Shown one piece after another: positions 6,001 to 38,278 of a stretch of 64,000 nucleotides of DNA (within the stretch, counting starts at the first letter, position 1; each line of letters starts with the position of its first letter). The translations under genes and the position numbers were made by a program. The notes below the pieces were generated by a model that did no database searches, was not told the origin of the DNA, and saw only the letters and a list, made by a program, of their open reading frames with translations. This DNA comes from a virus. The stretch spans positions 36,108 through 100,107 of IMG/VR virus record IMGVR_UViG_3300025666_000003; one strand, given 5' to 3'.

Positions 6001-9000
6001 ACATTATCCCACATGCTACCATAGTTGACTAATTTTTTAAAACCTAATCTATTATAAACAAAATTTTTATTTTCTTTCTTATGAAGACTACCCAATACAT
6101 AAGATACTTCATCTTCTGTACTTTCTTCTAATGATTTTTGACCAACACTTTTATCAGCTATTTGATCTGAATTATTTATTGATTCAGCATCTCCAACATA
6201 ACTATCTTCATCTTCCTTTAATTCTTCATTAATTATAGTTTGTCTTTCATTGATAATTCTATAACTACTATTTTCAACAAGGTATGCTAATGAACCATGC
6301 TTTTCATTACCAAAGTTTGTAATTACAGTTTGTAGTATTCTTATATCATCTTGTAACTTTGCTTGCTCAGCTGTAAGTATTTTAGTAGTTACAGGTTTCT
6401 TATTATATTCAAGAGCTTTGTATTTTGCTCCACCTTCAATATAGCTTGTATATTGTACAGTAGCATCTTGCATTGAATCAACTACTATTATTCCTACACG
6501 TTTCCCTTTACTGTTGGTTATAGATTCGTGACTATAGAAGTCTCCAATAATACTAATTCCATGATACATTTCACCTTTTAACCTGTCTCCTTTTTTTGAG
6601 CTTAAGTTAAGTTTGTTAAATTCATCAATTTGTGATCTAAGAAATACATACTTGTCATCTCCTGATTTTTCACTAGCAATCATAACAGCTGCTGCATTAG
6701 CTTTAAGTTCTGATAAAGTATTGATTGAATTAAAAGAAACATCTGTTATTTGCCCAAGCTCTTTTTTACGGTTTTCAAGTTGTTTTTCAAATCTTCCTTT
6801 AAGTATTTTAAATGCAATCTCTCTATTACTTATATTCTGCTCCGTTCCAAGAAACATTCTTTTCTTTTTCTTATTACTAAGAATCTCAATACTACCTGCT
6901 TTACTACCTGGAGCATCTCCATTTTTAATTGCTAATTGATCAACCATTTCAGAAAGAGTTGAGTCAGCACTTTCAACAAATAAATCTGATTCTTCTTTAT
7001 TTAAAGCATCTTCTTTTTTATTTTTTACTTGAGATATACCTCTGTCCATTTCATTAAACATGACATTGTCAATCAATGGAGTATACTTATTTAGTAGTTT
7101 TGGATTTTTACTAGAAAAATAAAGTGTATCAAACATCTCTTTAACTGATGAAATATCATAAAGATCTGTAATTACATCTTGTTTAGTTGTATTTTCAAAT
7201 ACACTTTTAATCCAATTTAGTATTCTTCTAAAGAGTGAATTTCTTTTTGGCCTACCTTTTTTAGCTTTTGGATTTTTAGAAAAAGTTCTGAAATCTTCTG
7301 CAAGTTCTTCTTCAATATCATAGAAAGACATATCTTTCCATTTACCACCTTTACTTCTTATCTCTTTATATAGTGCAGTCTTTTCTGCTTTTGTCAAGAA
7401 CAATTGTGAAAATGCATGCCAAGCTTCATGATACACATCTACCATGTTACCACCCGTATGCTCATTAATTCCTATCTTACCTAACTTACCACCTTCAAAT
7501 AATGTAGACCCCGCACTAATAAACTCTGCATAAACATCAGAATTTACAATATTGGCCATTTGACCTAAAGAGATGAAATTTTGTAGTGGAGATGTTTTCC
7601 ACCAATCATCAGCACGTTTAATATCTTCAGATGTTATACCTAACTGATTAAGAATGGTTTTTCTTTTAAGTCCACTTTTTGTATCAAAACCATCAAAAAG
7701 ATCTCCTTCTGATGGATTAATAGTTCCTTCAGGATTAAGTTTTTCAGCGTCTGTAGTTTTAATCTTTTTTGCTTCAAGATCTTTCTTTTGTTCTTGATAT
7801 AATTTTGTTCTTGGCTTTTCATTTAATGTGTAATCAGTTTCTTTAATAAAAGCTATTGCCACACCTTCACTATTATATACAGTAATTGTATCAGTAATAT
7901 ATTCAGTATCTGTTTCAATATCTTCGCTAACTAAAGTTACAGAATCATTAAGTTTTGGCATTACTTTTTTAACAGTTCCTTCATTTTTTTTAAATTTTTT
8001 AATAATTGATGCAGATACAGGTTGACCTTCAGCATTAAGAATTGTAAATGAACCATATCCTTCACCTTCTGTATTGGTACCTGTGTTTCCAATGTAGTTA
8101 ACTTTAAAATCTTTTGTGTTATTTTCTTCTAGTTTAAGTTCGTTAACTAAATTATCTTTAAGTTCTCTTGTGTATGATCTAAAATTTTCAGATTCAATTT
8201 CATTTTTTGCTTCATCAATTTCTTCAGTAATCCCTCCTGGTAATGCAAATTGCATGTAAGCATTAAATACTTCTTGAGTTTGGGATGTAGTAAAAATTTC
8301 AGCATGTGCTTTACGTAGTACATCATTAATATAGTCAGCTCTTACAAGTTTTCCATTTTGAAAATCAAAGTAACCTCCGTTAACTAAATCAGCTCTATAA
8401 CGCATTCTTGTTGCACTAACTTGACCAACATTTTCAGCATTTGGATTTGTTACAGTTGTTGCAAACATTAAAGCATCTTTAATTTCTTTAAAAGCTGTTG
8501 CTGATGTTAAGTCAACAGGTTTAACATTTTTATCAATTGCACCACTTTTTTCTGCAACTATTTTAATTGAAAACTCATCAGTAGCTGGAATATAAGACAA
8601 TCTGTATCTTCTTATACTTCTTGCCATATTATTATGAATAAATTGCTCAGCAAAATTCATTTTTTCTTTTCCTGTAAGTTGTGAACTAGTTAATGCACTT
8701 GCTATTTTTCCAGCAATTTCATCAGTCATACGTGGTCTATCAATAGTAAATTTCTTGTTGTCTATTGTAATAGTATGATATCCTTCAGGTCTTCCTTTTG
8801 ATTCTACTGTTACTGATGTTAATGAACTATAAATATTTAACAACTCAGTTTCTGATAATCCAGATTCTGATAATGTATCTAAATACATAAACTTACCTGC
8901 TGCAAAACTTTGGATACCTTCATTAATTCCTGTTATTGGAACTAACTTAGCTTCTTTAGTTTTTATAAATTGCTGAGTAAAATTATAAAGATCTTTTAAT

Positions 9001-10058
9001 TCTTTTTGTTGTTCCTTATCAATTGCATCAATAATATTTTGTTCAGTTTGTTCAGTTTCTTTAGCATACTCTGTTAAAGTCATATCAAATGAAGCTGCTA
9101 ACTTATTTGCAATCTCTGCTGGAGTAGTCACTTGTGATTCTTGATTATAAAGACCTTTTGCATTATATCTAGCTCCTTCTTTTCTTACTGTTCTTGTAAA
9201 CTGATATACATAACTACCATCTTCAGTAATTTTTCCATCAGTATTAAACTTAACTGGATTACCATTTGCATCAACAATAATCATAGCAACTCTTTCATTT
9301 AAAGGAGTTACATTTTTATTTTGTTTACCTTTACCCTCAAGAATATAACCTCTTTCAACAGTTCTTTTAGTATGTGCATCTAAATGTTCTGCTGGAATAT
9401 CTTTAACAAGTATAGGTTTAAGTTTAAGCACTTGATCTTCATATATAACATCATTTAATCCAGGAACACTTTTAGGATCAACTTGATTACTAATATTTCT
9501 TATTGTATTAAATATTCTTCTTCTAGTTTCACTTAAAAGTTCTTGTGTGAAGTCTGTTTTATCTTCAGGATTTAATGGATTATATTCTTGCATTGTTGTT
9601 GCAAGAGGACTAAATGGTCTAAGTCTTAATTCAACAAATTCATTAAGTTTTTCTTCATCAATTACTTCTTTTGGTGTAAGAATTTCTTCTTTTTTTTCAT
9701 TAACCAATTTCTCGAATTCTTCTGGAGATAAATCTGGTCTGAATGTTCTCAATGTATTAACAAATCCGTCATCTGGATTTCTAAAAGTTTGATTTAATTT
9801 TCTTAAATCAGAACCTTCAAGAACAGCATCTTGAGTATCTTGCTGCATAGAAGCTATTGTTAAAAGAGCAGGTAATTGTTGTACAAATTTTGCAGCATTA
9901 GCTTCATTTGTTTTATTTGCTATCTTATCAAACATTATGTTCATATAATTATCAACATTAAAAGGAATATTTTCCTTCATGCCAATCTTTATACTTTTAT
10001 AAGCGTGTTTGTATAATTTTTCTACCTGGTCTACTGTTAATGCACAAGTTATTTTCAT
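1..10058 (-). CDS. Giant virion-type RNA polymerase with N-terminal zincin domain (3' end outside window)
   Basis: Open frame of at least 3352 codons from ATG 10058 that runs off the left edge, so the C terminus is missing. The polymerase assignment rests on a catalytic loop DFDVD (residues 2518-2522, three metal-binding Asp), preceded by GVRIPTQTLGF and followed by a GKEVLGIAAIENA segment. Upstream lie KLQYYGP (K2131) and HKFSLMPLIP (H2149, K2150). This layout matches the crAss-like virion RNA polymerases related to phi14:2 gp66 (two double-psi barrels, DxDxD), which are packaged and transcribe early genes after ejection. A second domain near residues 870-925 has HEAWH (H877, E878, H881) followed by EEELAEDF, a gluzincin-type metalloprotease pattern. 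The start lies 1 nt after the stop of the 2255-aa gene. Length and fusion with a protease-like domain are inferred from the uninterrupted frame. Confidence 0.85.
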   Translation of the reverse strand, partial: MKITCALTVDQVEKLYKHAYKSIKIGMKENIPFNVDNYMNIMFDKIANKTNEANAAKFVQQLPALLTIASMQQDTQDAVLEGSDLRKLNQTFRNPDDGFVNTLRTFRPDLSPEEFEKLVNEKKEEILTPKEVIDEEKLNEFVELRLRPFSPLATTMQEYNPLNPEDKTDFTQELLSETRRRIFNTIRNISNQVDPKSVPGLNDVIYEDQVLKLKPILVKDIPAEHLDAHTKRTVERGYILEGKGKQNKNVTPLNERVAMIIVDANGNPVKFNTDGKITEDGSYVYQFTRTVRKEGARYNAKGLYNQESQVTTPAEIANKLAASFDMTLTEYAKETEQTEQNIIDAIDKEQQKELKDLYNFTQQFIKTKEAKLVPITGINEGIQSFAAGKFMYLDTLSESGLSETELLNIYSSLTSVTVESKGRPEGYHTITIDNKKFTIDRPRMTDEIAGKIASALTSSQLTGKEKMNFAEQFIHNNMARSIRRYRLSYIPATDEFSIKIVAEKSGAIDKNVKPVDLTSATAFKEIKDALMFATTVTNPNAENVGQVSATRMRYRADLVNGGYFDFQNGKLVRADYINDVLRKAHAEIFTTSQTQEVFNAYMQFALPGGITEEIDEAKNEIESENFRSYTRELKDNLVNELKLEENNTKDFKVNYIGNTGTNTEGEGYGSFTILNAEGQPVSASIIKKFKKNEGTVKKVMPKLNDSVTLVSEDIETDTEYITDTITVYNSEGVAIAFIKETDYTLNEKPRTKLYQEQKKDLEAKKIKTTDAEKLNPEGTINPSEGDLFDGFDTKSGLKRKTILNQLGITSEDIKRADDWWKTSPLQNFISLGQMANIVNSDVYAEFISAGSTLFEGGKLGKIGINEHTGGNMVDVYHEAWHAFSQLFLTKAEKTALYKEIRSKGGKWKDMSFYDIEEELAEDFRTFSKNPKAKKGRPKRNSLFRRILNWIKSVFENTTKQDVITDLYDISSVKEMFDTLYFSSKNPKLLNKYTPLIDNVMFNEMDRGISQVKNKKEDALNKEESDLFVESADSTLSEMVDQLAIKNGDAPGSKAGSIEILSNKKKKRMFLGTEQNISNREIAFKILKGRFEKQLENRKKELGQITDVSFNSINTLSELKANAAAVMIASEKSGDDKYVFLRSQIDEFNKLNLSSKKGDRLKGEMYHGISIIGDFYSHESITNSKGKRVGIIVVDSMQDATVQYTSYIEGGAKYKALEYNKKPVTTKILTAEQAKLQDDIRILQTVITNFGNEKHGSLAYLVENSSYRIINERQTIINEELKEDEDSYVGDAESINNSDQIADKSVGQKSLEESTEDEVSYVLGSLHKKENKNFVYNRLGFKKLVNYGSMWDNVVRAIGGIEDPVEAYEILNNKLLWQSFPELEQLIKYKLPNPNSADHETEFDITTAFWQTFKRKRTSYMQLTAFNTEDGYVLKPIKASYETGLLRRSFSDNFKTQTIEENRFITRDNNKSKLNLQKVTDVFKDASTVKGTFDVSKSLAFARALGMNLDDLKIIKNELEMRSEYYGLPYIYSIIKDLSALELQLQTKAENNKLTKQEEFKLTQIEIFKKDPVAELSKSTGLSTELFGKEITERTQIERIAILHGKYGSQYANFSVLNPEGNVVYEHIDDQTASRRVYALNKAKKLTDLWTKDEFKHMSDLNPATNSFTKRSQILKNLFNFYDGGQFNKLKDKSLELFIDSGTQNAEIQEGVVTTGLDYYGKFLQEMNLMLKEGIQEFIRHASKSSSFGIVIRGGIDGPISQEQSKLYVDLESLLKNGSGETYAFEEIILPYMAAEFERLKRFRANPEEFKKYKGYNRRMKWDGKEYYAGELFTAFDDVLNNNIKNQIYNLEGTDLIEALNNNPSLKAKMAESTKNYFDNQTTNSIAILRKNRFIDPKLRNKLAVHKLTEAEIDDALVRTYVYNSFIHNFETIGLLYGDMAQYNHAKDHLHKRNTGLTSGGLGVRTDISAQNFIQNVWNKGSYATTLDARYKNIKYNGTINTAVLEDVKRTSIYIDEIANAWRKDYAIRFKKVAKEDLKDALNEIELSKLGSNPTKPQLVKALVESRVARDIDEYKNMEEGDGQGLITFDTYRMLKKLSKQWSPEQEDLFQDIIHNREINPSDIKEFFPVYKLQYYGPIADALLPLTGMHKFSLMPLIPTMVGEGSDMDNLHKQMMEKDIQYVVFESGSKVSGITKDGSPDKIYDNEEQKDIVNNIEFTINKIYGEYLKDVTKVPNKFKKKTIFATQLRKVIIESLYNNGEVPVGIDKQKVKAYDDAVDEYTEILTIELLNDIGFEYKYGAYTGDLNRFVNVIHKELGRKAVPKHLIKMIGVNQENKINIDLSLHLEADTIEKTIISLIEKRLIKQKVKGEGLVQVSSATTNGTWDRVLRQKFDKASKADIKKFLGSNNLPFYHQVNGKTKLMKVAIALQGDFLNLLNLKDINGEVIETRERLNEMIKDDNWLDQDDGSNRKAVTLAGVRIPTQTLGFIESMEVYEFLDPAASNIIILPSEIVVKNGSDFDVDKMTTFMPSIDASGKFITSNVTNEELKKEISKIKEDKGKGISVIIRNQKNALENNLIQAIKGIVELPSNFAQLTKPTGTNTLRPIAMDLQKYVSEFDKFENVYDGPRIDGKNNDIVISPTRTLEVPFNLDKHSANLIGKEVLGIAAIENALHPLLNQIDAKMPASYKAQIYSEDGYVDIDVDYKMRLKLRHNSTTNSKNQTVISLSDIYSVDGIEKIADLFSESVNGLVDVEADAWIFYIQANPELAPVLFYLFKAGVPAKDAIYFVSNPLVRKYAEKQRLLSSAYEEIVTQRGEVIANPLIKYMAADQTLTESMSAKEKIAMEAKVNTENLKALIPVLEGKSIVEYYQKGKKNTEFATKAEMEQLLNNEDTIINLIITEKGDKIYKLRSSPVSTSKYYQGASVAMEEAGIGTFNKNELYKIVKGEGSEKTKIAAFMHFLEIEKQIKGLNSLKRLANPDTTRSKTAQELVGKIQGLEELMTNSKVDSDTVLALVNESILSSFYKNELVLKLLEPLFKLRNNSVITKFILDKLGSPRIADRYGSDQEAVSQFIREFKNGVVNYIYQNRMSNFVNSKGEVIDYPDLYKGYKVNTSTKNIPGGVEINSEKEIITINPGMLSDDYDYGYYLRSSTAEKAYTNRGLTSFTEENDPFVSESGIRNKKSSFFKYSIERAITKLKNPIELVKDNKEYKRIKAGGLTPERAYEEFLTKRALINAFNRKFLMQMETYSFSQTILDVIKDFPSLKVKYPVLQQLTPADTIGDDKVLTLADKNRVEGDLASSYYHNLKELADVNIKKVSTGNAKADKKDNAYISKLFKMFPLVMLYQHGIGYS

Positions 10059-26013: not shown

Positions 26014-28323
26014 TTAAAATTCTTCTACTACATAACCACCGTCTCTATACTCTTGTATTTCTTCATCACTTAATTCCATTTCTATAAAGTTACCACCTTT
26101 AGAAAACTTATATGATTTTCCTTTGTCATCACTTTCTAATGCTGCACCAGTTGCTATTGCTCCTGGTATTATACCATATGTTTTATTTAAGACATCTGTA
26201 ACTGCTTTAATCCAATTTTTACTTCCTACAGGCATAGTAGGACTCATACTAGCAGATCCTGGTGAATTTAAAGAATAAGCATCTAAATAATTTAAAAGTT
26301 TATATATATCATCATATTTTCCACGTTGTAGTTGTCTCCCGCCTTTTACACCTCCCCTGTAATCACCTTTTAAAACCTTATGTTTATAGATACCTCCTTC
26401 TTCTGAGGGAGCTGACCATTCCCCAAACATGTTTGACTTTGCAAATTCTGTTTCTCCTTCGTTTAATCCTTTCCCCAGCTTTTCAACCATTTCCTCTGTA
26501 ATCTCATCTCCCATTTTTAAACCAGCATTTTCTTCTAACCAGCCGATAGCTTTTCTAAATCTAACTTGTTGTTCTGGAGCAATTGATTGATACTCTGCAC
26601 CACCAGGTATACTTACATTTTTATCTTCAGTAAGCTTTAAAGCAGGATAATTATCATATAAAGGTTGACCATGAAGTTTCCCATCTATAGAAATATAAGG
26701 ACCTTTTGAATCACTGAATAAATGATTAACTTCATGGTCTATAACACCTAAAACATCTTCTTTACTTTTATTTTTTAAGTTTCTAGTATTAATCGCTATT
26801 TTACCATTTCCTTCATATACACCACCCGCTTTATCTCCTAAGTCTTTTAAAGTAATAGAACCTTCATTAAATTCTTTTGTAAATTTTTCTATAGACTCTG
26901 TTACTTCCTCTCTACTTCTACCTGTAGCTTTCATATTATTAGTAATAAACTTATCAGTCGTAAGTCTACTTTTTATTTTTTGAACTATATCAGCAACATC
27001 TTTATTTGTTACTCCTAATTTAGACAAATCTGCAAGATCATTTGATTTTCCTAAAAATTTATTTATATTTGGATCTACTTGATTCATTCTTTTGTATACT
27101 GATACAATTTCATCTACAGGTGTTCCTTGTGCAATTGAATTAATAATTTCAGCTTTAGGTACGGATAAAGATATTTCGTTTAATTTAGGATTTAGTTTAT
27201 CTAAAGTACTAAATACTGATTCTAATGTAATAAGTGGAACTTCGTTTTTTAATGCAATCTCTGCAAAATCTTTTAATTGTTCATTTGTTACACCTGTTGG
27301 TAATTTGTAATCTTGGAAATTACCCATTTTTGGTACAGAATTATTTGTAACATAATATTTTTTATCAATTGATGCAGTGTTTTTTATTACATCATCAATT
27401 AATTTCTTAGCTAAAATTTCTTGATGCGTACCTACTTTTTTATTTATTAAAGCTTCTGCTTTTTTAAGTTCAGGAATCTTATTAAAAATTTCAGGACTGC
27501 GCCCTTTTAACTTGTCTAAAGTTTGTTTAAGTATAGTTTGATCATAAAAACTAATATCATCAGCAAGAGCTTTTGGAGCTTTTGGAACTTTTATATTTTT
27601 AGCTGATGCTGGAAGTGCTTTATGAGCTTTTCTTATTGCACGCCATTCTTTAGTTCCTGGTATAAATGCAAGTAAACCTAAGGCAGCTTCTACGTAATTT
27701 TCATTATCTATTGCCATATCTATGTCACTTGCCCATTTAAGTGGATTACCCATTTGATTAACAAAGTCAAGTGGGTTGGATCCTTGTCCTTTTCCTTCAT
27801 CACCATAGCCAAATTTTTCTCGGAAACTTGATGCAGTTGGATCAATTCCTGCATATAACATTTGATTATAGTTTCTTGGCATATTATCTAAGCCTCCACC
27901 TACAAATGAATATTTAGCTGCTGCAAAAGGATTACTAACAATATCTGAAAATCTGTCAATACCTCTATCCCAAGAACTAGGCTTGTCCCATTCTTCTACA
28001 GTGCCATGATTTTCTTTAGCAGTAGCATGCATATCGTATATGTCAACTAATTCACTAAGACTTTTAATATTATCTTTTACCATGTCTCCACTACCTGCTT
28101 CTCCTGTTTTAATTAACTCACGAGCAATTGCAGCTTTTTGTTGAAATATATTTATTGATTCATCAGTTAAATCTCCTCCATTTTTTGGTGGGTAATAGTT
28201 ATAAGGTTGTGTTGATTCAGAAACTGCTGGAGCATATGCAGGATTATCTAAAATTGGGTCATAAGTTGCCCCTGTTCTACCTTTTTGTGCTTTTGGTAAA
28301 GCTTTTATTTTATATCGTGCCAT
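26014..28323 (-). CDS. Cargo protein with HExxH metalloprotease motif, 769 aa
   Basis: It begins MARYKIKALPKAQKGR, the clearest example of the LPxAQxG head tag. Residues 140-240 include a Gly/aromatic-rich region and a short hydrophobic helix (ALGLLAFIPG). At residues 505-540 a stretch of alternating polar and hydrophobic residues (GKIAINTRNL) is followed by DVLGVIDHEVNHLFSD, giving H530-E531-x-x-H534, a zincin active-site pattern. A third zinc ligand is not certain. The C terminus is a tail tag (MELSDEEIQEYRDGGYVVEE). The start is 2 nt after the stop of the 1520-aa gene. A role as an ejected protease, for example in envelope passage or processing of virion proteins, is inference. Confidence 0.7.
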   Translation of the reverse strand: MARYKIKALPKAQKGRTGATYDPILDNPAYAPAVSESTQPYNYYPPKNGGDLTDESINIFQQKAAIARELIKTGEAGSGDMVKDNIKSLSELVDIYDMHATAKENHGTVEEWDKPSSWDRGIDRFSDIVSNPFAAAKYSFVGGGLDNMPRNYNQMLYAGIDPTASSFREKFGYGDEGKGQGSNPLDFVNQMGNPLKWASDIDMAIDNENYVEAALGLLAFIPGTKEWRAIRKAHKALPASAKNIKVPKAPKALADDISFYDQTILKQTLDKLKGRSPEIFNKIPELKKAEALINKKVGTHQEILAKKLIDDVIKNTASIDKKYYVTNNSVPKMGNFQDYKLPTGVTNEQLKDFAEIALKNEVPLITLESVFSTLDKLNPKLNEISLSVPKAEIINSIAQGTPVDEIVSVYKRMNQVDPNINKFLGKSNDLADLSKLGVTNKDVADIVQKIKSRLTTDKFITNNMKATGRSREEVTESIEKFTKEFNEGSITLKDLGDKAGGVYEGNGKIAINTRNLKNKSKEDVLGVIDHEVNHLFSDSKGPYISIDGKLHGQPLYDNYPALKLTEDKNVSIPGGAEYQSIAPEQQVRFRKAIGWLEENAGLKMGDEITEEMVEKLGKGLNEGETEFAKSNMFGEWSAPSEEGGIYKHKVLKGDYRGGVKGGRQLQRGKYDDIYKLLNYLDAYSLNSPGSASMSPTMPVGSKNWIKAVTDVLNKTYGIIPGAIATGAALESDDKGKSYKFSKGGNFIEMELSDEEIQEYRDGGYVVEEF

Positions 28324-28325
28324 AA

Positions 28326-31300
28326 TTATATTTTTTCAAAAACGTAACCTTGTTTTTCTAATGCTTTTACTTCTTCATATGTAAGTTCAACTTCATCATT
28401 TATTTTACCATTAAATTGTGTTGTACCGCCTTGTTCTAAAAACTTAGGGTTACTGATAGATGCAATTGAAGGTACTGAATCTAATTCTTTATCTTGTTTT
28501 ATTTTTCTTTTTATTTCTGCACGTTGCCGTGATCTTTTATCTACTGGAAGACCAAGAGATGCACCTAAAGTAAATGTAGGACGGAATCCTAAATTTTCAG
28601 AATTATTTGATTCTGTATCTGTTTTTTTACCTAATACTGGATTAAACATTACTCCTGCATTTAGTTTAAGAATTGAATTATTTTTAAGTTTTCTTTTATA
28701 ATCTGCTTTAATACCATAATTTAATCCAAGTTGTGCTTCTTTTCTATCTTCACCAAATACTTGTGTTGCTGATGCATGTGGTTTTGTTTGTGCATTCATT
28801 CCACCATAAGGAGTTATGTTTAATTCATTTTGCCTATTTTTAATTGCGTGAATTTTATGACCTGCGCTTAAATCATAATACCCTCCTCTTACTGGATCTA
28901 AACCTATATTTTGTTTCATGAAGTTTTTAGCTGGCCAACTTCCTCTTTGTTCAGTTCCAAACTCATAACCTGCTTTAGCACCAAAACCAAAGTTACCACC
29001 ATAGACATCTCCTGATAAAGTGTGAATATTAGATCTATCTTTTGTCCCTCTAAATTCATGCTCTAATCCAAGATTACCCATTAAACCATAGTCATCTGAA
29101 TTATACTGCGGACCTAAAGAAAGAGTTGTGCCATTCTGAGCTTGTGGTAATTCCTCTACTACGTAGCCTCCATCTTTGTATGCTTTAATCTCGTGTTCAT
29201 CTAAGTCAAGTTCAATATAATTATTATTTTGCCCACCACTTTGCAAAAATCCTATTTTTCTAGATTCTAAGTCTTCAGGTTTAACAGCTTTCTCTCGTTG
29301 CACCCATCCTATTACAGGTTCTTTCACCCATTCTAAAGTACTAGCTGGTGGCTTAACTGTTCCTGGTGTAGATTTTTTCTTTATAGGTGCAGGCTTACTA
29401 ACAGGTATATCTTCAATAGAAACCTCTGGACTTGCTATAGGTTCAACATTTCCTATAGGTCTTTCTGTACTTATAGCAACAGCATCTGCACGTTCTTGAT
29501 CAGTCATGTTCCGTCCATTCTTCTTATAGTATTCAGCATCAGCTATAAAGGCATCTAGTGTTGGATATTTTTCTTTATCTACATTCTTGTACGCAGCTTT
29601 ATATGACTTCTTAGGTTGTATTATATTAATCAAGGTACCAAATGTATTAGGATCAGGAAGTAATTCTTCTTCTTCTTCTTCTTTATATATGTAAGGTTGA
29701 ACTGGTTTTGAATATGTTACATTGTAACCTGAATATTGTGGTCCTGAACCTGTTAACCATTGACTCCAAGTTTGGTGTGGTGTATATGCACCTGTTGGAC
29801 CTATAGTAGGATGACTAAATTCAGCATGGATAGCTTTATTCTTTAGATCTTTTGTAGGTTTTTTATTTTCATCCCAGTTATCCGAAACTCTTATATTAGG
29901 ATTATCTGGATGCGGATAGGATGCTGCTGAAACACTATTATAAAGCTGTGGTGGTTGATTCATTGGTTTGGTTGCTTGATATAAATCTCCCAAGCTCTCA
30001 GAACTATTTACAGAATCGAAACCTATTAAATCACCTACTCTATTTTTGAAATCATTACTAAAGTTATAAAGATCTAAACTATCCTTATAACCCTGTAATC
30101 TTGGATCATCAGGATCTGTTAACTCTATAGGCTTTCTACCTCCTCTTTGAGCTTTAGGTATAAATCTATTTAATGTGCCTCCTTTTTGCAAATAACTACC
30201 TGTACTTAGATTATACTCTTTTAAATCTTTAGGTTTAACAGGTCTCTGTATTTGATACCAAGTTCCTGTTTGTGGATGTTTTACCCACTGTAGAGTAGAA
30301 GCTGGTGGTTTAACTGTTCCTGGTGTATCAGCAGGGGTATCTTTAATAGGAACTTTTGGTATTCTGTATGCACCCATTCTTATATCAAAGTAATCAGGGT
30401 CAGCACCTTGCCTCTCCATTAATTTCTTCATTTCTGGCCCGTCAGTGATACTTATTCCGACAGGTGCATGATATGTGTAGTCATCATCTTCATACATTAC
30501 ACCTGGATTTTCAACAGGTTTTATATAATAATCTTTGTCAAGTACCTCTATACTTTTTATTTGATTTTCATCTGTACCATTATTCCCTATATAATCAGTA
30601 ACGTTAGTTATCTTAGCTAAATCTTCAGCAGGCATATTTCTACCATTCTTCTTATAGTATTCAGCATCAGCTATAAATGCATCAATAGTTGGATATTTTT
30701 CTTTGTCTACATTTTTGTATGCATCTTCATATGACTTCTTAGGTTGTATTATAGTACCAAGTGCCCGTCCAGATGAAGAACTAGAAGATGAAGTTTTGTT
30801 TCTAGTTAATTCTTTTTCTTCTTCAGTCTTCATATCCCAAGGCTTTATTGAAGTTGGATTATAATAAGGTAACTTTGTCAAAGCTCCAGGAGTTTTGGCG
30901 CGAACTTTGTTTTGTTGCAGTTGTCTATAAAGAAGAACTTTCATATCTTTCTCAGTAAAGCCTTTAGATTTAGCATACGTAATAAGGTCTTTTTTACCAG
31001 TATTGGTGTCATCATATTCCAAAAAAAGATGAAGATTATCAGGATCTCTGTGAAGCTTTTCATAAAGCTCACGTTCTGTTTTGTTTAACTTATTATAACC
31101 AAACATATTTTTTGGAGTGTACATTATCTCACCTTCAGGTTTTATTCTGTGATCATATCTTAGTAAAGGTGCATTAGTATCTATTGCACCTGTAATCATA
31201 TCACTTGTGTAAGATATGTTTGGATCATTGTTACGCTCAATTATTTTTGTATTATCATATGATAAATCAGAATGACCCATAGTTTCTGCCTCAATTTCTT

Positions 31301-32888
31301 TCATTCTTGAATTAGTTTCACCCCAATGAGGAAAAATATCTACATCGTAAAAATTTTTATTTTTATCATAAAACCCCTGAACTTCCATTGCATTATTGTA
31401 AAGATCTAAACTATCTTGTCTAGTAACTTCTATTGGTGGTACTCTTCTTGATGGAAAAATGCCAGTTTGTGCTTTTGGTAAGAATATATTTTCGCCACCT
31501 TCTTGTAAAGTATTAGTAAACATTTTAAGCTGAGCTAATGTAGGTTTGAAAGGTTTTTTAGTTATACTACTTGTTCCAATATTATACGATGGACCTTGTG
31601 CACGTCTTTCTCTTTCGTACCATGTTCCAGTTGAAGGTGATTTATGCCAAGTAGTAGCAGATCCAGGTAATTCAAGAAGAGCATTATTTGTCTTATCATG
31701 AATAAGCTGTTTATCAATTTCTTTAGTTGGTATTTGTTCTAAAGGTTTGGTAGGAAGTGTAGGAGTTTGCGCTTCTTCCCATGCTGCTTTATCCATTACT
31801 GGTTTCTTGTAAACAGGTGACGTATGACTACCATCCCAATATGTTCCTGTAGGTTTTATTGTCTCGTGATATAGATCAGGAGATGTTGCAATACTATTTC
31901 TTACATTACCATTGAATGGTAAAGTATCATAGTAGTTTAATATTTTTTCAGCACTAGGATCATCTGTACCATAAGCATTTATTAAAGCTTTCCTGTTAGA
32001 GAATCCACCTGCATTATAATTATTCCAATCCCAAGAATGATTACTTGCCATAAATCTATTACGTCTATCTTTTAAACCTTGTTCAAGAGTAAGTCCTTTA
32101 TTGTTATAATATCTTTCCATGGATTCTTTCTGAGCAGGATCATTACCCAAAACTTCCATTGTAGACAATTGGTTAGCCTTTTGAAATTGATAAGCATTGT
32201 ATAAATTTAAACTATCACTATAGGCTGCTTGATTAAATATATCACCACCTGTTTGCTTATTTTGTAAATGTTCTGGTAATTGATCTTTCCAAGAACCCAT
32301 TCCAAAAGCTAATGCAGCTTCCTTATCCTTTCCAAAATCATATACCTCACCTCTTTTCTCAGCCTCTTCATATATTGGCCACCAACCATCTTTTTCATCA
32401 GACATGTCAACCCAATTTCTAGAGTCGTCTGCGTATGGTTTAGAGTCTTGAAATAATGAAGGGAATGCTACCCAACCTCTTCCGTCTACGTACTCTGCTT
32501 TCATTAAGTGAGAGGATACATCAGAAGGTCTAGAAAACTGACCTGAAGGTGTCCAAACAGAATGCCCGTCATAGTTTTCTCTTGTCCCTCTTCTTTGTTT
32601 TACAGTATGACCACCAGATTGCATTTGTGGAAATTCATCAACATAGTCTGCACCGGGAAAATTATAATCTTGTCCTGGTTGCATCATCATACCTGGGCCA
32701 ACATTAGGTTGTGCCCATACAGGGTAAGGTACATTATCCATAGTAATATCACTACCTGGAATTCTTGTATTTTCTCCAGGATGAGCCCATTGTCCTCTTG
32801 GATCTTTTATTATATCCTTTGGTTTTGATGGAGCTTTTGCTTTACCTAATTCTGATATAGCTTTTGAAAGAAGTTTTTTATTATACAT
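28326..32888 (-). CDS. Multidomain tagged virion protein with C-terminal beta-barrel-like domain, 1520 aa
   Basis: Residues 105-212 (YDGHSVW, SSHLMKAEYVDGRGW, FGMGSWKDQLP) resemble a domain recurrent in crAss-like cargo proteins. The protein then carries repeated units: a Gly-Gly or PKAQ tag (NKQTGGD, FLPKAQTGI, FIPKAQRGG), about 15-30 residues, then DSLNLYN or DSLDLYN. It also has two copies of a 37-residue block (KKSY, AYKNVDKEKYPT, AEYYKKNGRN) and two of TPGTVKPPASTL. Near residues 1228-1250 a tail tag (KAYKDGGYVVEE) is directly followed by LPQAQNG. Then comes an about 195-residue segment of alternating hydrophobic strands rich in Gly/Tyr (1253-1448), like a small outer-membrane beta-barrel. 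A second tail tag (QGYVFEKI) ends the protein. It looks like two fused tagged modules. The start shares 1 nt (TAATG) with the nozzle gene stop. Confidence 0.7.
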   Translation of the reverse strand: MYNKKLLSKAISELGKAKAPSKPKDIIKDPRGQWAHPGENTRIPGSDITMDNVPYPVWAQPNVGPGMMMQPGQDYNFPGADYVDEFPQMQSGGHTVKQRRGTRENYDGHSVWTPSGQFSRPSDVSSHLMKAEYVDGRGWVAFPSLFQDSKPYADDSRNWVDMSDEKDGWWPIYEEAEKRGEVYDFGKDKEAALAFGMGSWKDQLPEHLQNKQTGGDIFNQAAYSDSLNLYNAYQFQKANQLSTMEVLGNDPAQKESMERYYNNKGLTLEQGLKDRRNRFMASNHSWDWNNYNAGGFSNRKALINAYGTDDPSAEKILNYYDTLPFNGNVRNSIATSPDLYHETIKPTGTYWDGSHTSPVYKKPVMDKAAWEEAQTPTLPTKPLEQIPTKEIDKQLIHDKTNNALLELPGSATTWHKSPSTGTWYERERRAQGPSYNIGTSSITKKPFKPTLAQLKMFTNTLQEGGENIFLPKAQTGIFPSRRVPPIEVTRQDSLDLYNNAMEVQGFYDKNKNFYDVDIFPHWGETNSRMKEIEAETMGHSDLSYDNTKIIERNNDPNISYTSDMITGAIDTNAPLLRYDHRIKPEGEIMYTPKNMFGYNKLNKTERELYEKLHRDPDNLHLFLEYDDTNTGKKDLITYAKSKGFTEKDMKVLLYRQLQQNKVRAKTPGALTKLPYYNPTSIKPWDMKTEEEKELTRNKTSSSSSSSGRALGTIIQPKKSYEDAYKNVDKEKYPTIDAFIADAEYYKKNGRNMPAEDLAKITNVTDYIGNNGTDENQIKSIEVLDKDYYIKPVENPGVMYEDDDYTYHAPVGISITDGPEMKKLMERQGADPDYFDIRMGAYRIPKVPIKDTPADTPGTVKPPASTLQWVKHPQTGTWYQIQRPVKPKDLKEYNLSTGSYLQKGGTLNRFIPKAQRGGRKPIELTDPDDPRLQGYKDSLDLYNFSNDFKNRVGDLIGFDSVNSSESLGDLYQATKPMNQPPQLYNSVSAASYPHPDNPNIRVSDNWDENKKPTKDLKNKAIHAEFSHPTIGPTGAYTPHQTWSQWLTGSGPQYSGYNVTYSKPVQPYIYKEEEEEELLPDPNTFGTLINIIQPKKSYKAAYKNVDKEKYPTLDAFIADAEYYKKNGRNMTDQERADAVAISTERPIGNVEPIASPEVSIEDIPVSKPAPIKKKSTPGTVKPPASTLEWVKEPVIGWVQREKAVKPEDLESRKIGFLQSGGQNNNYIELDLDEHEIKAYKDGGYVVEELPQAQNGTTLSLGPQYNSDDYGLMGNLGLEHEFRGTKDRSNIHTLSGDVYGGNFGFGAKAGYEFGTEQRGSWPAKNFMKQNIGLDPVRGGYYDLSAGHKIHAIKNRQNELNITPYGGMNAQTKPHASATQVFGEDRKEAQLGLNYGIKADYKRKLKNNSILKLNAGVMFNPVLGKKTDTESNNSENLGFRPTFTLGASLGLPVDKRSRQRAEIKRKIKQDKELDSVPSIASISNPKFLEQGGTTQFNGKINDEVELTYEEVKALEKQGYVFEKI
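29516..29625 (-). repeat. Direct repeat copy A inside the 1520-aa gene
   Basis: A segment of about 110 nt encodes KKSYKAAYKNVDKEKYPT and the following DAFIADAEYYKKNG block. It matches copy B at 30644-30753 with about 9 mismatches by manual alignment. The offset is 1128 nt (376 codons), which keeps the frame. It points to a fairly recent internal duplication. Confidence 0.8.
30644..30753 (-). repeat. Direct repeat copy B inside the 1520-aa gene
   Basis: Partner of the repeat at 29516-29625, encoding KKSYEDAYKNVDKEKYPT and the same following block. A linked second pair (TPGTVKPPASTL, about 29344 and 30301) has a different offset, so insertions or deletions have occurred between the duplicated units. 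Confidence 0.8.
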
Positions 32889-35800
32889 TACCTTGGGGAT
32901 ATTTGATTCTTAGTATTAACTATTTTCACTACCATGTTTACACCATTTGATATATCTTTTCTTAAATATAGCATATTATTGTAATGTCTGAACTTTTTTC
33001 TTTGCAAAGGTTCTTTTGTATAATTAAGATTAAATTCATTTAAAGCTTTAATATAACCATTTGATTCTGTAATCCAAATGTGTCTTTGTTGTTTTCCACC
33101 TAGTTGAGTTGTTGTTCCAGGAATTACTGGATTAGTAGTTGGACTACTTGAGCCTACAGGAAACTCTCCTCTATCTCTTGTTATATCCCAAAACTGATTA
33201 AATCTATATTTATGTTCTTCCTTTGAAAATAGTATATCTATTGAACTACCATTTATGATAGGGTATGTGAGATTTAAAGGAACATTGTTTTTAGGATATA
33301 TAAATAAATCTAAATATCCGGATACTTGCTCAGTGTTATGTATTACAGCTGTATCAAAATTATAATCTAATACATGAAATTGATCTACACAATTATATTC
33401 ATTTCTTCTATAGCACTCAAGTAAATATTCTACACTTTTCATTGTAGTTATTGTCTGTCCAGTCACTATAGGAATTTCAACTTCAAATGGATAGTTAGTA
33501 CCATAAAAGTTACAGTATTCATTACATAAATTATTATGTTTCCAAACACCGTTATCTTTAACAGTTAAAAAATTACCTTTAGATGCTAGCATTATATTTG
33601 GATGCCAGTCATGATGAGAAACCCAGAATTTAGATTTTGGATCATATGACATTGTCCAAGAAGCATCTTCAAATATATTTGCATCTTTAAGATTAGTTCT
33701 TATTACATCATCTACTATAAATTGTTTAAGTTCTTCATTCCAAACTACTCTTCCTTTAAACGGATCTTTTAATTTGTAATCTTTTTTAGCAAAGTAAAGT
33801 ACACTGTTTTCATTATCATATATTGAATGACATCCAATACCAGCTACTGGATTATCAGTATGTGGATAATTTGGAAAATCTTCTAAAAGTTGAAATGGTA
33901 AGAATTTATTAAACCACCATTTTAATCCTGAACTTGATATTTCTTGTAAACCAGATGCATATGAAAATATTTTACCTTGATTTTGACTTATGTAAAACAT
34001 ACCAGCTGGCGTAGATATTACACTTCTTCCATTTTGAGATGATCCATATTCATATTCTTCATCTGCAGCTACTACATTTTGTGCAGCTTGATTAAACAAC
34101 CCACCATCACCTAAGGTAACTTTAGTACCTAAGTCTGTTTGTAAAGTATCAACACCTTGGTAAACCATAGGGCTTGCATTTTTAAACGTAATAAATATAC
34201 CCGTTTTAGCAAAGTTTTTTACACTACTTATTTGATTTTTAAATTCTTTATAATTATTAGGTAAATACATAAACCATGAATCTTTTACTGATTCTAATTC
34301 TTGTGGTAATGAATAAAGAATTCTATCTGGATAATATGTATAACAAAGTTCTGCAACTTGAGGATCATAAAACCTAGTTTGAAGATTACCTTGTGAAAAA
34401 TATTGAGTAAACAATTTTGATATACTTAAAGAGTAATCATATTCGTTATAGTTACCTCTAGTAATAACATCTGGATTCATATTAAATAATCTATACAAAT
34501 CAGTATATCCATATGGGTCATAATGTTTTTCAAAAATTTCAACACCTTGTTCTCTAAAATCTACAATAACATCACTCTCAACATAAAAGTCTCTTACAGC
34601 TGATGTAGACAAATAGAAGTATGCATTTTTAATTCCAAATATTCCGTTATTAAGATTAGCTATTGTTCCTAAAATACTATTATCATTACTGTAATTATAA
34701 TTTTCCCAATCTAGATTATAATAATTATGTGGAAACAGTCCTTCACCTTCAGGAGGTGTATTAAATGGATTAATAAAATCTATAAGATTTGCCCACATTG
34801 CATTGGCTTCATATCTTATACTATTCATCCAGAATCGTGGATCAGGAATCATCTTTCTATTTAGATAATTATATTCAGTTCCATCTGGTTGATCATATAA
34901 CCAATCATGAAACATAAACATAGAATTCTTTTCTGTATATCTATTAATGTAAGTATCTCCTTCAAATAATATAGGCGTTGTTTGAATAATTTTTTGTTCA
35001 AATTGAGGAAGGCTGCATGCTGGAGCTAATGTAGTAATGGGAATATCAGCATACTCAAACTTTTGTTCACACGGTGTAATTGGAATTTGCTTTATTGCTT
35101 GTAATTGCCCATACTGATTTCCTATACGTACTTTAATACCTCCGTAATGACTTTTGATATTTTTATTAAAAGTTTTTGTTTTACCTTTTTTAAAGTCAAC
35201 ATGTGATACATCAGAAGTACCTATAGTAACTAATGAATCATCAGCTCCAGGCCCTGTAAGAAAATTTGGACCACCTGTTACTCTGCTAACTCCTTCAGAA
35301 GTTCTAATAACTACTGTTTCAGATCTTCTAAGATTATTAATTCTATAAGTAACTGGAAAGCCAAAAGTTGCAGGTGTATAACTAGACATTTCTTGAAGAT
35401 CTTGACCTAAATAAAATTCATCTTCTATATTAAATCTACGTATCTTTGTTAGATCAACTTTATTAAACGTATCATAGTACCCATGTGCAATTAATTGAAG
35501 AGCACGTTGTCTATAAGGTACAAGAGAATATATTAATCTAATTACTAAATCTGCTCCTTCTGAAAAGTAATATAGCATTTGTGCTAAATCATTGCCAAAT
35601 ACATTTGCTAAACTACTATTTTTAAGATATTGATGTTTACTTAACTCTGTGTCATAACTAGGTGCTGTGTATGTACCACCTGCACGTAAACCACCATCTA
35701 AATTAAATTTATCATAATGATCTTGTAAAGAGCCATCTGTACCTACTCCTGGAATGAATGAAAAGATACTTGATAAACCTTCATTTACAGCTTCACCATT

Positions 35801-38278
35801 ATTAAAATAGTCATCATATTCATTTGTGTATGTAGGTTCATCATTATTTGTAAATTCATCAACACCTGAACCACCAGTGACTCCAGAATCATCTGAGTAT
35901 TCTACTATTTCTGTAGAACCATCATTACTGTTAAGTGGACTTATAGTTCCTGGAGTAAGTAATCCAGAACCACCCGTTAAAAAACCACTTGTACCACTTG
36001 TACCACCTCCACCACCAATTGAATTTTGGGTATAGTCATCACCAAAGACTCTAGTAAAACTAGCTCCTGGAGCATTAATAGTTCTCTTACCTAAATTAGC
36101 TATGATAGCTTCAATAATACCACCCATAATAGCAGCCCACATTGCAACATCTTTTAAAAGCTTATCTTTAGGATGCTTACTAGGTTCTATAAACTGTTGA
36201 TCGCTTTCACCACTTATATTACCATATAGTTTTAATTCTGTAGTTCCTAAAAAAGGTTCTTTAAATTCAGTATCTGGTGAGTGAAATGTTATTATGTCTT
36301 CTGGAATATTTGCTTCAGTAATATCAATTGTATCATCATCATTGTCTACTGCTCTGATATATGGATCAACAGCACCATTGACACCTCCTGTTGGATTAAT
36401 AGTATTAAAAGGATGATTAGGGTATAATCCTGCTGTACCACCCCCTGTTACTCTGTAAGGTCTCATATTATTAAGCATACCTTTTGCTATAATAGTTTTG
36501 TTTCCATCACGAGCTCCTCTTAATATTTCATATCCTACTAAATTTGGTATATCATTACCATCATTATCTTTAGGATAAATTATATTTTCAAACAATACTC
36601 CTAGAATTCTAATTTTACTACCATCAGTTCCGTTATCTATAAAATGATTTACATCATCGTTTACACTTTGTTCTGGAAACTTATGATGTCTAATTTGCAA
36701 TCCACATAAATCCCATTGTTCACTTGCTTGACCATATACACCTGTCCAACACTGAGCACTTGAATTCCAAATTTCAGGTTTATTATCAGGATAAAATTCT
36801 GTTGACTGCCAGTATCCCATGTCACCTGTTCTTAACACTACACCACCATCTGGAAGTACTGTTCCATTTGGAGTACCTGATGTAGCTGTATTTATAGTTT
36901 CAAATAACAGTGTATCATCAGGAAGGCTATCGTCATCTGAGTATACAGAATTTTCAAACAAACCAGTATTTTGAAATAATCTTGGCCCTCTACCTGGAAT
37001 ATGATAAGATGAAGTTTTATCTCCTGTATTGTATACCCATCTAATAAAAAATGGATAATTTTCATCTCTTAAATAACTAGGCTTATGCCCACCTTTAGAA
37101 TAATATCTTGCAGGATATTCTACTGAAGCCCACTTAGCTTTAATTAAATTTGCTAATGGTTGATAATTAAAATCAAATTTAGATGTAGGACCTATTCTTA
37201 ATAAATAGTTATCTATCTCAACTATTTCATCTGATCTTTCAAAAATAGGATTTTGTAATGGAATAAGACTTAATTGTACAGGAATAAGATCTTCTTTTAT
37301 TTGATCAATATATATAGTTGTTGTACGAGTAGAATAGTATCCTATCTTTTTTGCAACAGCACCTTGATTTATATTTTGAATTATAACAAGTTCAAATTCA
37401 TCAAAATGTTCTGAATCAGCTTCTACATTAATCTTTAAGCCACCTCTTGCATTATCTTTATGCCAAATAGGCTGAACATTACTAGGTGAATAATAATCTG
37501 TAACTTTCTGATTTTTAATAGTATACGCAAGTACTACAAAATATGAACCATTAAATAAAGTACCACCTTGTGTACCAGATTCAATTGTTAAACAAGGTGT
37601 ATCAACTAACCTAGCTAATCTAATAGCATTGCAATCAAGCTCTTGTGTATCTACACATATCTTACAACCATTTACAATTGGACAATCTTCAATCCATTGT
37701 ACACCTGGCCATTGTATAGTATCACTTCCATTTGTATATTCATTATCACTTGCCCATACAAAATCATTTGAAGGCCATATTTGAGGATCCCCAATGTTTA
37801 AATACCTATCTGGATTATTACTATCTGCAAAATACACTGCCCATGAACAATCTTCCTTTTCTCTTGAAGCTCCTGTAATTAAATTATATCTATCAAAGTT
37901 TAAACAATTATCCTGAACAATAATTTTATAACTACATAAGTCTTCTTGAAATAAACCTATTTCATCTTTTTTACCTGTTTGACCGGGTCCTAAAATAGAA
38001 GTTGTAAAAATTACCCAGTTATCACTAAATAAATGTATTGCACCAATTATTTCTTTTTCAGAACCTACTAATGTTTCCCCTGCAGTAATACATAAATAAT
38101 TAGAAGATTCATTTGATAATGTACCTAAGTTACCTTCTGCTGTATTATTTACAGCATTACGAGCATGTGTCCATTCTCCTTCAGATACAAAAGATGGATC
38201 CGCATCTTTGTTTAACCCTTTAAAAAAAGTATTAGTATTTAGTTGACCTGTATTTTGTTTTCCTTGTTTTTTAGCCAT
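32888..38278 (-). CDS. Tail nozzle/muzzle ('stabilisation') protein, 1796 aa
   Basis: The N terminus has the pattern FFKGLNKDADPSFVSEGEW, THARNAVNN, GTLSNE (residues 18-56). This is the start of the P22 gp10/T7 gp12-type tail stabilisation or nozzle family that in crAss-like phages forms the distal tail muzzle. The body is beta-rich, with many aromatic Asp/Gly turns typical of propeller and beta-sandwich domains. A Gly/Ser/Thr-rich low-complexity insert lies near residues 749-816, and a hydrophobic helical segment just before it (VAMWAAIMGGIIEAIIANLG). It follows two neck/ring proteins and precedes the cargo genes, as expected for the tail assembly order. At 1796 aa it is very long for the family as known from T7 and P22. 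Confidence 0.8.
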   Translation of the reverse strand: MAKKQGKQNTGQLNTNTFFKGLNKDADPSFVSEGEWTHARNAVNNTAEGNLGTLSNESSNYLCITAGETLVGSEKEIIGAIHLFSDNWVIFTTSILGPGQTGKKDEIGLFQEDLCSYKIIVQDNCLNFDRYNLITGASREKEDCSWAVYFADSNNPDRYLNIGDPQIWPSNDFVWASDNEYTNGSDTIQWPGVQWIEDCPIVNGCKICVDTQELDCNAIRLARLVDTPCLTIESGTQGGTLFNGSYFVVLAYTIKNQKVTDYYSPSNVQPIWHKDNARGGLKINVEADSEHFDEFELVIIQNINQGAVAKKIGYYSTRTTTIYIDQIKEDLIPVQLSLIPLQNPIFERSDEIVEIDNYLLRIGPTSKFDFNYQPLANLIKAKWASVEYPARYYSKGGHKPSYLRDENYPFFIRWVYNTGDKTSSYHIPGRGPRLFQNTGLFENSVYSDDDSLPDDTLLFETINTATSGTPNGTVLPDGGVVLRTGDMGYWQSTEFYPDNKPEIWNSSAQCWTGVYGQASEQWDLCGLQIRHHKFPEQSVNDDVNHFIDNGTDGSKIRILGVLFENIIYPKDNDGNDIPNLVGYEILRGARDGNKTIIAKGMLNNMRPYRVTGGGTAGLYPNHPFNTINPTGGVNGAVDPYIRAVDNDDDTIDITEANIPEDIITFHSPDTEFKEPFLGTTELKLYGNISGESDQQFIEPSKHPKDKLLKDVAMWAAIMGGIIEAIIANLGKRTINAPGASFTRVFGDDYTQNSIGGGGGTSGTSGFLTGGSGLLTPGTISPLNSNDGSTEIVEYSDDSGVTGGSGVDEFTNNDEPTYTNEYDDYFNNGEAVNEGLSSIFSFIPGVGTDGSLQDHYDKFNLDGGLRAGGTYTAPSYDTELSKHQYLKNSSLANVFGNDLAQMLYYFSEGADLVIRLIYSLVPYRQRALQLIAHGYYDTFNKVDLTKIRRFNIEDEFYLGQDLQEMSSYTPATFGFPVTYRINNLRRSETVVIRTSEGVSRVTGGPNFLTGPGADDSLVTIGTSDVSHVDFKKGKTKTFNKNIKSHYGGIKVRIGNQYGQLQAIKQIPITPCEQKFEYADIPITTLAPACSLPQFEQKIIQTTPILFEGDTYINRYTEKNSMFMFHDWLYDQPDGTEYNYLNRKMIPDPRFWMNSIRYEANAMWANLIDFINPFNTPPEGEGLFPHNYYNLDWENYNYSNDNSILGTIANLNNGIFGIKNAYFYLSTSAVRDFYVESDVIVDFREQGVEIFEKHYDPYGYTDLYRLFNMNPDVITRGNYNEYDYSLSISKLFTQYFSQGNLQTRFYDPQVAELCYTYYPDRILYSLPQELESVKDSWFMYLPNNYKEFKNQISSVKNFAKTGIFITFKNASPMVYQGVDTLQTDLGTKVTLGDGGLFNQAAQNVVAADEEYEYGSSQNGRSVISTPAGMFYISQNQGKIFSYASGLQEISSSGLKWWFNKFLPFQLLEDFPNYPHTDNPVAGIGCHSIYDNENSVLYFAKKDYKLKDPFKGRVVWNEELKQFIVDDVIRTNLKDANIFEDASWTMSYDPKSKFWVSHHDWHPNIMLASKGNFLTVKDNGVWKHNNLCNEYCNFYGTNYPFEVEIPIVTGQTITTMKSVEYLLECYRRNEYNCVDQFHVLDYNFDTAVIHNTEQVSGYLDLFIYPKNNVPLNLTYPIINGSSIDILFSKEEHKYRFNQFWDITRDRGEFPVGSSSPTTNPVIPGTTTQLGGKQQRHIWITESNGYIKALNEFNLNYTKEPLQRKKFRHYNNMLYLRKDISNGVNMVVKIVNTKNQISPR

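Follow-up and report, generated by a model that had tools for sequence, protein, structure and literature searches.

Short tail and head peptides bound exchangeable units in putative cargo proteins of a crAss-like phage lineage

The first gene past the muzzle gene of a crAss-like phage encodes a 1520-aa protein in which a peptide that also ends proteins (the tail tag) is followed at once by a peptide that begins them (the head tag). Is this junction a site of cleavage, the trace of a gene fusion, or a chance likeness? We addressed this question in the window, a 64,000-nucleotide stretch of DNA (positions 36108–100107 of a 100,107-base virus record), and in related phages. The window DNA is from a crAss-like phage: it carries a muzzle protein that matches crAss_MUZ, and portal (1e-90), terminase (TerL, 1e-61) and major capsid (MCP, 3e-32) genes are found in the same cluster with PHROGs. 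Past the muzzle gene, the minus strand encodes proteins of 1520, 769, 722, 1140, 1158 and 2255 aa (the first four are genes 1 to 4; Table 1) and then a giant ORF that leaves the window. This ORF of about 4,245 aa (window positions 1–10058, minus strand) extends left in the full record (G000) to about 33428 and has 2OG-Fe(II) oxygenase and NADAR domains in its C-terminal part; because it spans the first 10 kb of the window, no long ORF is listed there. It adjoins a 1994-aa protein (G000:27410–33391; L090:7410–13391, minus strand) with a HEFAH zincin-like motif and a LysM domain.

Table 1. Features of the locus downstream of the muzzle gene, in window coordinates
Feature	Position	Strand	Remarks
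Muzzle protein	32888..38278	(-)	PF25731, E 1.3e-25; anchor for collecting relatives
Gene 1, 1520-aa multi-unit putative cargo protein	28326..32888	(-)	First gene after muzzle gene
Conserved N-terminal anchor of gene 1 (aa 1-95)	32604..32888	(-)	Ends in head-like FPQMQSGG (aa 86)
Internal separator LQEGGENIFLPKAQTG of gene 1, about aa 460-476	31461..31511	(-)	
Internal separator LQKGGTLNRFIPKAQRGG of gene 1, about aa 899-917	30138..30194	(-)	
Internal tail tag LDLDEHEIKAYKDGGYVVEE of gene 1, aa 1227-1246	29151..29210	(-)	Matrix score 41.8; profile E 3.4e-21
Head tag LPQAQNG of gene 1, aa 1247-1253	29130..29150	(-)	Abuts tail tag
C-terminal beta-rich, possibly barrel-like unit of gene 1	28419..29129	(-)	No close relative found
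True C-terminal tail tag of gene 1, type A, NDEVELTYEEVKALEKQGYVFEKI	28329..28400	(-)	
Gene 2, 769-aa putative cargo protein	26014..28323	(-)	Zincin-like HEVNH motif
Head tag MARYKIKALPKAQKG, gene 2 N terminus	28279..28323	(-)	
Tail tag IEMELSDEEIQEYRDGGYVVEEF, type B, gene 2 C terminus	26017..26085	(-)	Profile E 4.3e-16
Gene 3, 722 aa	23786..25954	(-)	Starts MKKRVRVYKAGG; ends in related tag GDEMYMSEEDIEDFINSGGELEFI
Gene 4, 1140 aa	20354..23776	(-)	Head tag MRRVRIKRLPQAKAGG at start; internal GGSLQRFIPQAQTG; ends in YVMGSNVFPFMF

The sequence-only reading of this locus had reported a tail tag running directly into a head tag, and we found that arrangement where it had been placed: positions 28326–29222 on the minus strand correspond to aa 1223–1520 of the 1520-aa ORF, and the two tags abut within them. 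The other tags that it had named are also present, namely a second, slightly different tail tag at the true C terminus of the 1520-aa protein, a head tag and a tail tag at the two ends of the 769-aa protein, and a head tag at the start of the 1140-aa protein. The tail tag has the form acidic helix, GG and YIVEE, and the head tag at natural N termini is basic, with the form [KR][VY][RK]I..LPKAQxG. Gene 1 contains two further separators of the form LQxGG...F[LI]PKAQxG, and the junction therefore belongs to a set of several unit borders, in this case with the acidic helix. The protein also has an internal duplication of roughly 120–200 aa (aa 681–887 and aa 1086–1208, IIQPKKSY..AYKNVDKEKYP); one copy ends in a plain separator and the other in a separator plus the acidic helix tag. 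The beta-barrel proposed for the C-terminal unit fared less clearly. It is plausible from sequence, but the single-sequence AlphaFold model, made with no alignment, is poor (pLDDT 38) and has a few late strands. Neither Pfam nor PDB gave a sequence match for this unit, and the only relative that a search retrieved is a near-identical contig.

To follow the tags across relatives, we used 80 muzzle-anchored loci from IMG/VR (written L plus a number), which are metagenomic contigs apart from named phage records and in which genes are simple ATG-to-stop ORFs; the tag counts span about 70 related contigs. The tail-tag matrix was trained on natural C termini only, so that its internal matches are an independent test. 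It gave 109 matches in 191 unique proteins downstream of the muzzle (170,602 aa) as compared to 0 in shuffled copies of them, and 0 matches in 578 upstream proteins (298,276 aa). The strict head motif gave 80 matches as compared to 1.4 in shuffles, and again 0 upstream. Thus, both tags recur among the relatives and are specific to proteins downstream of the muzzle. The motifs are short and rich in G and E, as a chance or low-complexity likeness within one protein would have them, but the empty shuffles and the empty upstream proteins of the same phages speak against this, as does a junction profile that includes the window's own copy: across the full 100-kb record it matches only at the internal junction (3e-21) and at the C termini of the 769-aa (4e-16) and 1520-aa (1e-3) proteins. 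We regard chance resemblance as refuted by the shuffles and the relatives, and its probability as negligible. A tblastn search of phages and plasmids with the 38-aa consensus junction gave no match, which we put down to the shortness of the query, and we found no earlier description of the tag-bounded unit pattern in the open-access literature.

Complete copies of gene 1 are 183 to 2507 aa long, have a hypervariable middle, and mostly keep the N-terminal anchor and a C-terminal tail tag. The 95 aa of the anchor are kept in about 50 relatives, most of them about 60–77% identical, with identity falling to about 34% in the remotest; some relatives have a SET domain in place of the anchor. SET domains (protein lysine methyltransferase type) occur at the start of or within gene 1 in L069 (13845–14393), L053, L049, L040, L057 and L088. 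Of 55 complete unique copies of gene 1, 37 have a single internal and a single terminal tail tag, and 10 have the terminal tag only. The internal tag can be anywhere from aa 58 to aa 1871. Within 26 aa past it, the strict head motif is found in 17 of 52 cases (background 1.3%) and a loose motif in 28 of 52 (background 11.7%); exact abutment of tail and head is frequent, though not universal. A module of about 50 aa, ATNRLFxxNPLFxKPKxxKxKxFDPNAxxxxxGG, often precedes the internal tail tag in gene 1 of many loci.

The same tags appear at the ends of neighbouring genes. Twelve loci have gene 2, and in each of them gene 1 closes with the GDEV-type tail that we call type A, which is absent from every complete gene 1 copy without gene 2; the 12 loci may be kin, and we therefore count this as an association rather than as 12 separate events. 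In the window, gene 2 starts 2 nt past the stop codon of gene 1. There and in at least seven other loci, the border between the two genes is a tail-head junction broken by a stop codon and 2 bases. In 33 distinct relatives, gene 3 has a C-terminal tag of the related form GDEVYMTEEEIxxFxANGGELEYL. Related tags close each of genes 1 to 3, which are adjacent. Gene 4 (L070/L014-type) also closes with a GG and then a conserved C-terminal peptide of its own, YVMGSNVFPFMF or YVYADxxYPFIL.

If the junction is a fusion point, the same unit should end naturally at the tag in another phage, and this is what we found. In L069, gene 1 is only 183 aa long and consists of a SET domain, the ATNRLF module and the tail tag, followed by a stop. 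It corresponds end to end to aa 1–178 of the L057 protein (632 aa) at 63% identity, where the tag is internal. Among 53 internal tags, 29 are matched by a homologous upstream unit of another phage that ends there; the internal tag is thus the true C terminus of homologous units elsewhere. As a comparison of homologous sequences, the L069/L057 pair and these 29 counterparts provide decisive evidence for fusion, one of the two readings of the junction that the sequence-only reading had offered, and its description of the tags as modular unit borders holds as well. The units are shuffled: depending on the phage, one and the same domain lies on either side of the junction or in gene 2. For example, aa 932–1250 of L019 gene 1 match aa 954–1285 of L049 gene 2 (51%), and aa 609–828 of L040 gene 1 match aa 286–509 of L055 gene 2 (53%). 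A unit that once ended at a tail tag would have been joined in frame to a unit opening with a head tag, and the fused protein would keep its tags while gaining units. Within-genome duplication was considered as a source of internal tags and rejected, because the internal and terminal tags of a genome resemble each other no more than tags from different genomes do (pS 0.52 within genomes and 0.55 between). The tags have a pN/pS of 0.5–0.7 at near-saturated pS (about 0.5), which shows protein-level constraint weakly. Because the protein motif persists at near-saturated synonymous sites and within-genome copies are no more alike, the tag is not just recently copied DNA.

Exchange at the junction is also visible in the DNA. 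When we compared relatives at ≥85% DNA identity, 28 of 130 right ends of identity blocks were 15–45 aa after the tag start as compared to 3.2 expected, about nine times the expected frequency; at 80% identity, 48 of 246 were just after the junction as compared to 6.4 expected, and block ends also cluster at PKAQxG-type separators generally (44 of 130 as compared to 5.6 expected), with the reservation that all of these counts share sequences, are not fully independent and have no phylogenetic correction. L014 and L018 are 95% identical up to aa 158 and unrelated directly past LPEAQVG. In L054 and L062, a junction-plus-cassette of roughly 260 aa is present in one only, and both flanks are 96–98% identical. 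Enzymatic units are likely to be gained, lost and swapped at tag points. Identity blocks that stop at the junction and other separators, and a tag that is mostly unstructured beyond a short helix, are also consistent with tags that are low-selection linkers or recombination hot spots, aiding cassette exchange with no role in the virion. However, DNA homology alone does not maintain the tags, because pS is near saturation and within-genome copies are no more alike, and tags also close the products of three adjacent genes, a place where no linking by recombination is called for. We consider a mere linker or hot-spot role unlikely.

A second possibility is that the junction is a processing site, where cleavage behind the tail tag, by a protease of phage or host, frees units with natural-like tagged ends. 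The same sequence is found at natural termini and at the junction, as this possibility expects, although at natural C-terminal tags there is nothing to cut. Zincin-like HExxH motifs are strongly enriched in the cassettes (22 as compared to 0.1 in shuffles), with one in the neighbouring 769-aa protein and HEFAH in the 1994-aa protein of the same phage, and metallopeptidases of polyvalent proteins have been proposed to free units, with P1 DdrB processed before packaging (PMC5512222). However, only 15 of 55 complete loci have these motifs, whereas the junction is far commoner, and the residues just past the tail tag are variable (LPEAQ, ISVPSL, VDEIS, LDDYK). A search of the 100-kb record, which may be incomplete, gave no S78 (Peptidase_S78) prohead-protease match with its controls working; the S77 search gave no match, but its controls gave none either. 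The paper on the crAss001 structure says nothing of a protease or of cleavage in its main text (PMC10172136). Cleavage thus keeps some weight, but we think that it is improbable, and we return to fusion of tag-bounded units.

What do the units contain? The 1520-aa and 769-aa proteins of the window have no significant Pfam match (a PF01487 match of the 769-aa protein, E 0.03, was below the cutoff and was disregarded), and tblastn of both against INPHARED phages gave no match; their membership among polyvalent proteins therefore rests on orthology and position. Pfam domains across 39 proteins include SET in 6, phage lysozyme in 5 and ART-PolyVal (ADP-ribosyltransferase) in 3, as well as amidase, SLT and tail lysozyme. 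Relatives can have two or more effector domains in one polypeptide, such as SET and ART-PolyVal in L053 and SET and GNAT in L040. The tagged genes are surrounded by virion genes, and the phage encodes a terminase and a portal, which is the setting used to recognise polyvalent proteins. Polyvalent proteins (Iyer et al., 2017; PMC5512222) are likewise very large and multidomain, are encoded in virion gene clusters with extensive mosaicism, and carry shuffled effectors including ART-PolyVal, lysozyme and zincin-like peptidases. In contrast to that description, here standard peptides bound the units, at natural ends and at internal fusion points; the word 'linker' has 0 occurrences in the text of PMC5512222. 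The tagged proteins are thus likely to be polyvalent-type cargo built from tag-bounded cassettes.

The position of the genes points the same way. In crAss001, the locus from gp45 on encodes cargo that was detected in virions by mass spectrometry (PMC10172136), and gp45/gp46, like the genes described here, are located between the muzzle gene and RNA-polymerase-type giant proteins (PMC10172136). The gp45 protein also starts with a basic stretch and then a GG motif. crAss001 has one gp45-type gene, as compared to up to four tagged genes in this lineage. From this position, which matches that of crAss001 cargo, we infer that the tagged proteins are packaged and ejected with the DNA. We did not find the tail tag in crAss001 gp45/gp46 or in Cellulophaga phi17:2, so it is not a general crassvirus signal.

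A distant deposited relative, Leptolyngbya phage Lbo-JY46 (PP438436; 25% muzzle identity), keeps the N-terminal anchor of gene 1, and there a tail tag ends a 674-aa protein and a head tag starts a 484-aa protein; unlike in the window, the units are in separate genes with no internal tail tag. The listed host of Lbo-JY46 (PP438436.1, L092) is a cyanobacterium, yet the phage has a crAss-type muzzle and tagged cargo genes. It is either a crassvirus outside Bacteroidota or a phage with a misassigned host.

How might the tags act? The model of the tail tag has a short helix, with pLDDT about 75 there, and the sequence around it is poorly defined. This prediction, in which only the helix is at fair confidence, fits a short linear motif. 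The T4 capsid targeting sequence and the propeptides of SPN3US head proteins are short terminal peptides that route internal proteins into the head, and those of the T4 type sit at the N terminus, from which the prohead protease removes them. The tags resemble these signals as short terminal peptides and may similarly route proteins into the head. In contrast to T4-type signals, they occur at either end of proteins as well as inside them, and we found no such protease in the record. From their position, the tags are most likely virion-cargo address or docking peptides, and they would have been selected for loading cargo into the capsid or tail, or for ordering it. A more specific idea is matched docking: the acidic tail on one cargo protein would bind the basic head on its successor, unfused units would thereby be arranged as an ordered ejection train, and fusion would make the contact covalent. 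The restriction of the type A tail to the 12 complete loci with a separate gene 2 and the spacing of only 2 nt between stop and start in at least 8 of these 12 fit such docking, and head and tail are in the same register before proline (YRITSLP / YVVEELP). We offer this idea as a long shot.

Overall, we favour, with reasonable though incomplete confidence, a reading in which the proteins are polyvalent-type cargo of exchangeable tag-bounded units, the junction is a fusion point, and the tags are putative address or docking peptides. The large tagged proteins are probably virion proteins that are injected. Crassviruses carry megadaltons of protein cargo, and the tag pair is a concrete candidate for its address signal. 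The tags also offer a simple rule, readable from sequence, by which hypervariable proteins can be divided into units and searched for new injected enzymes.
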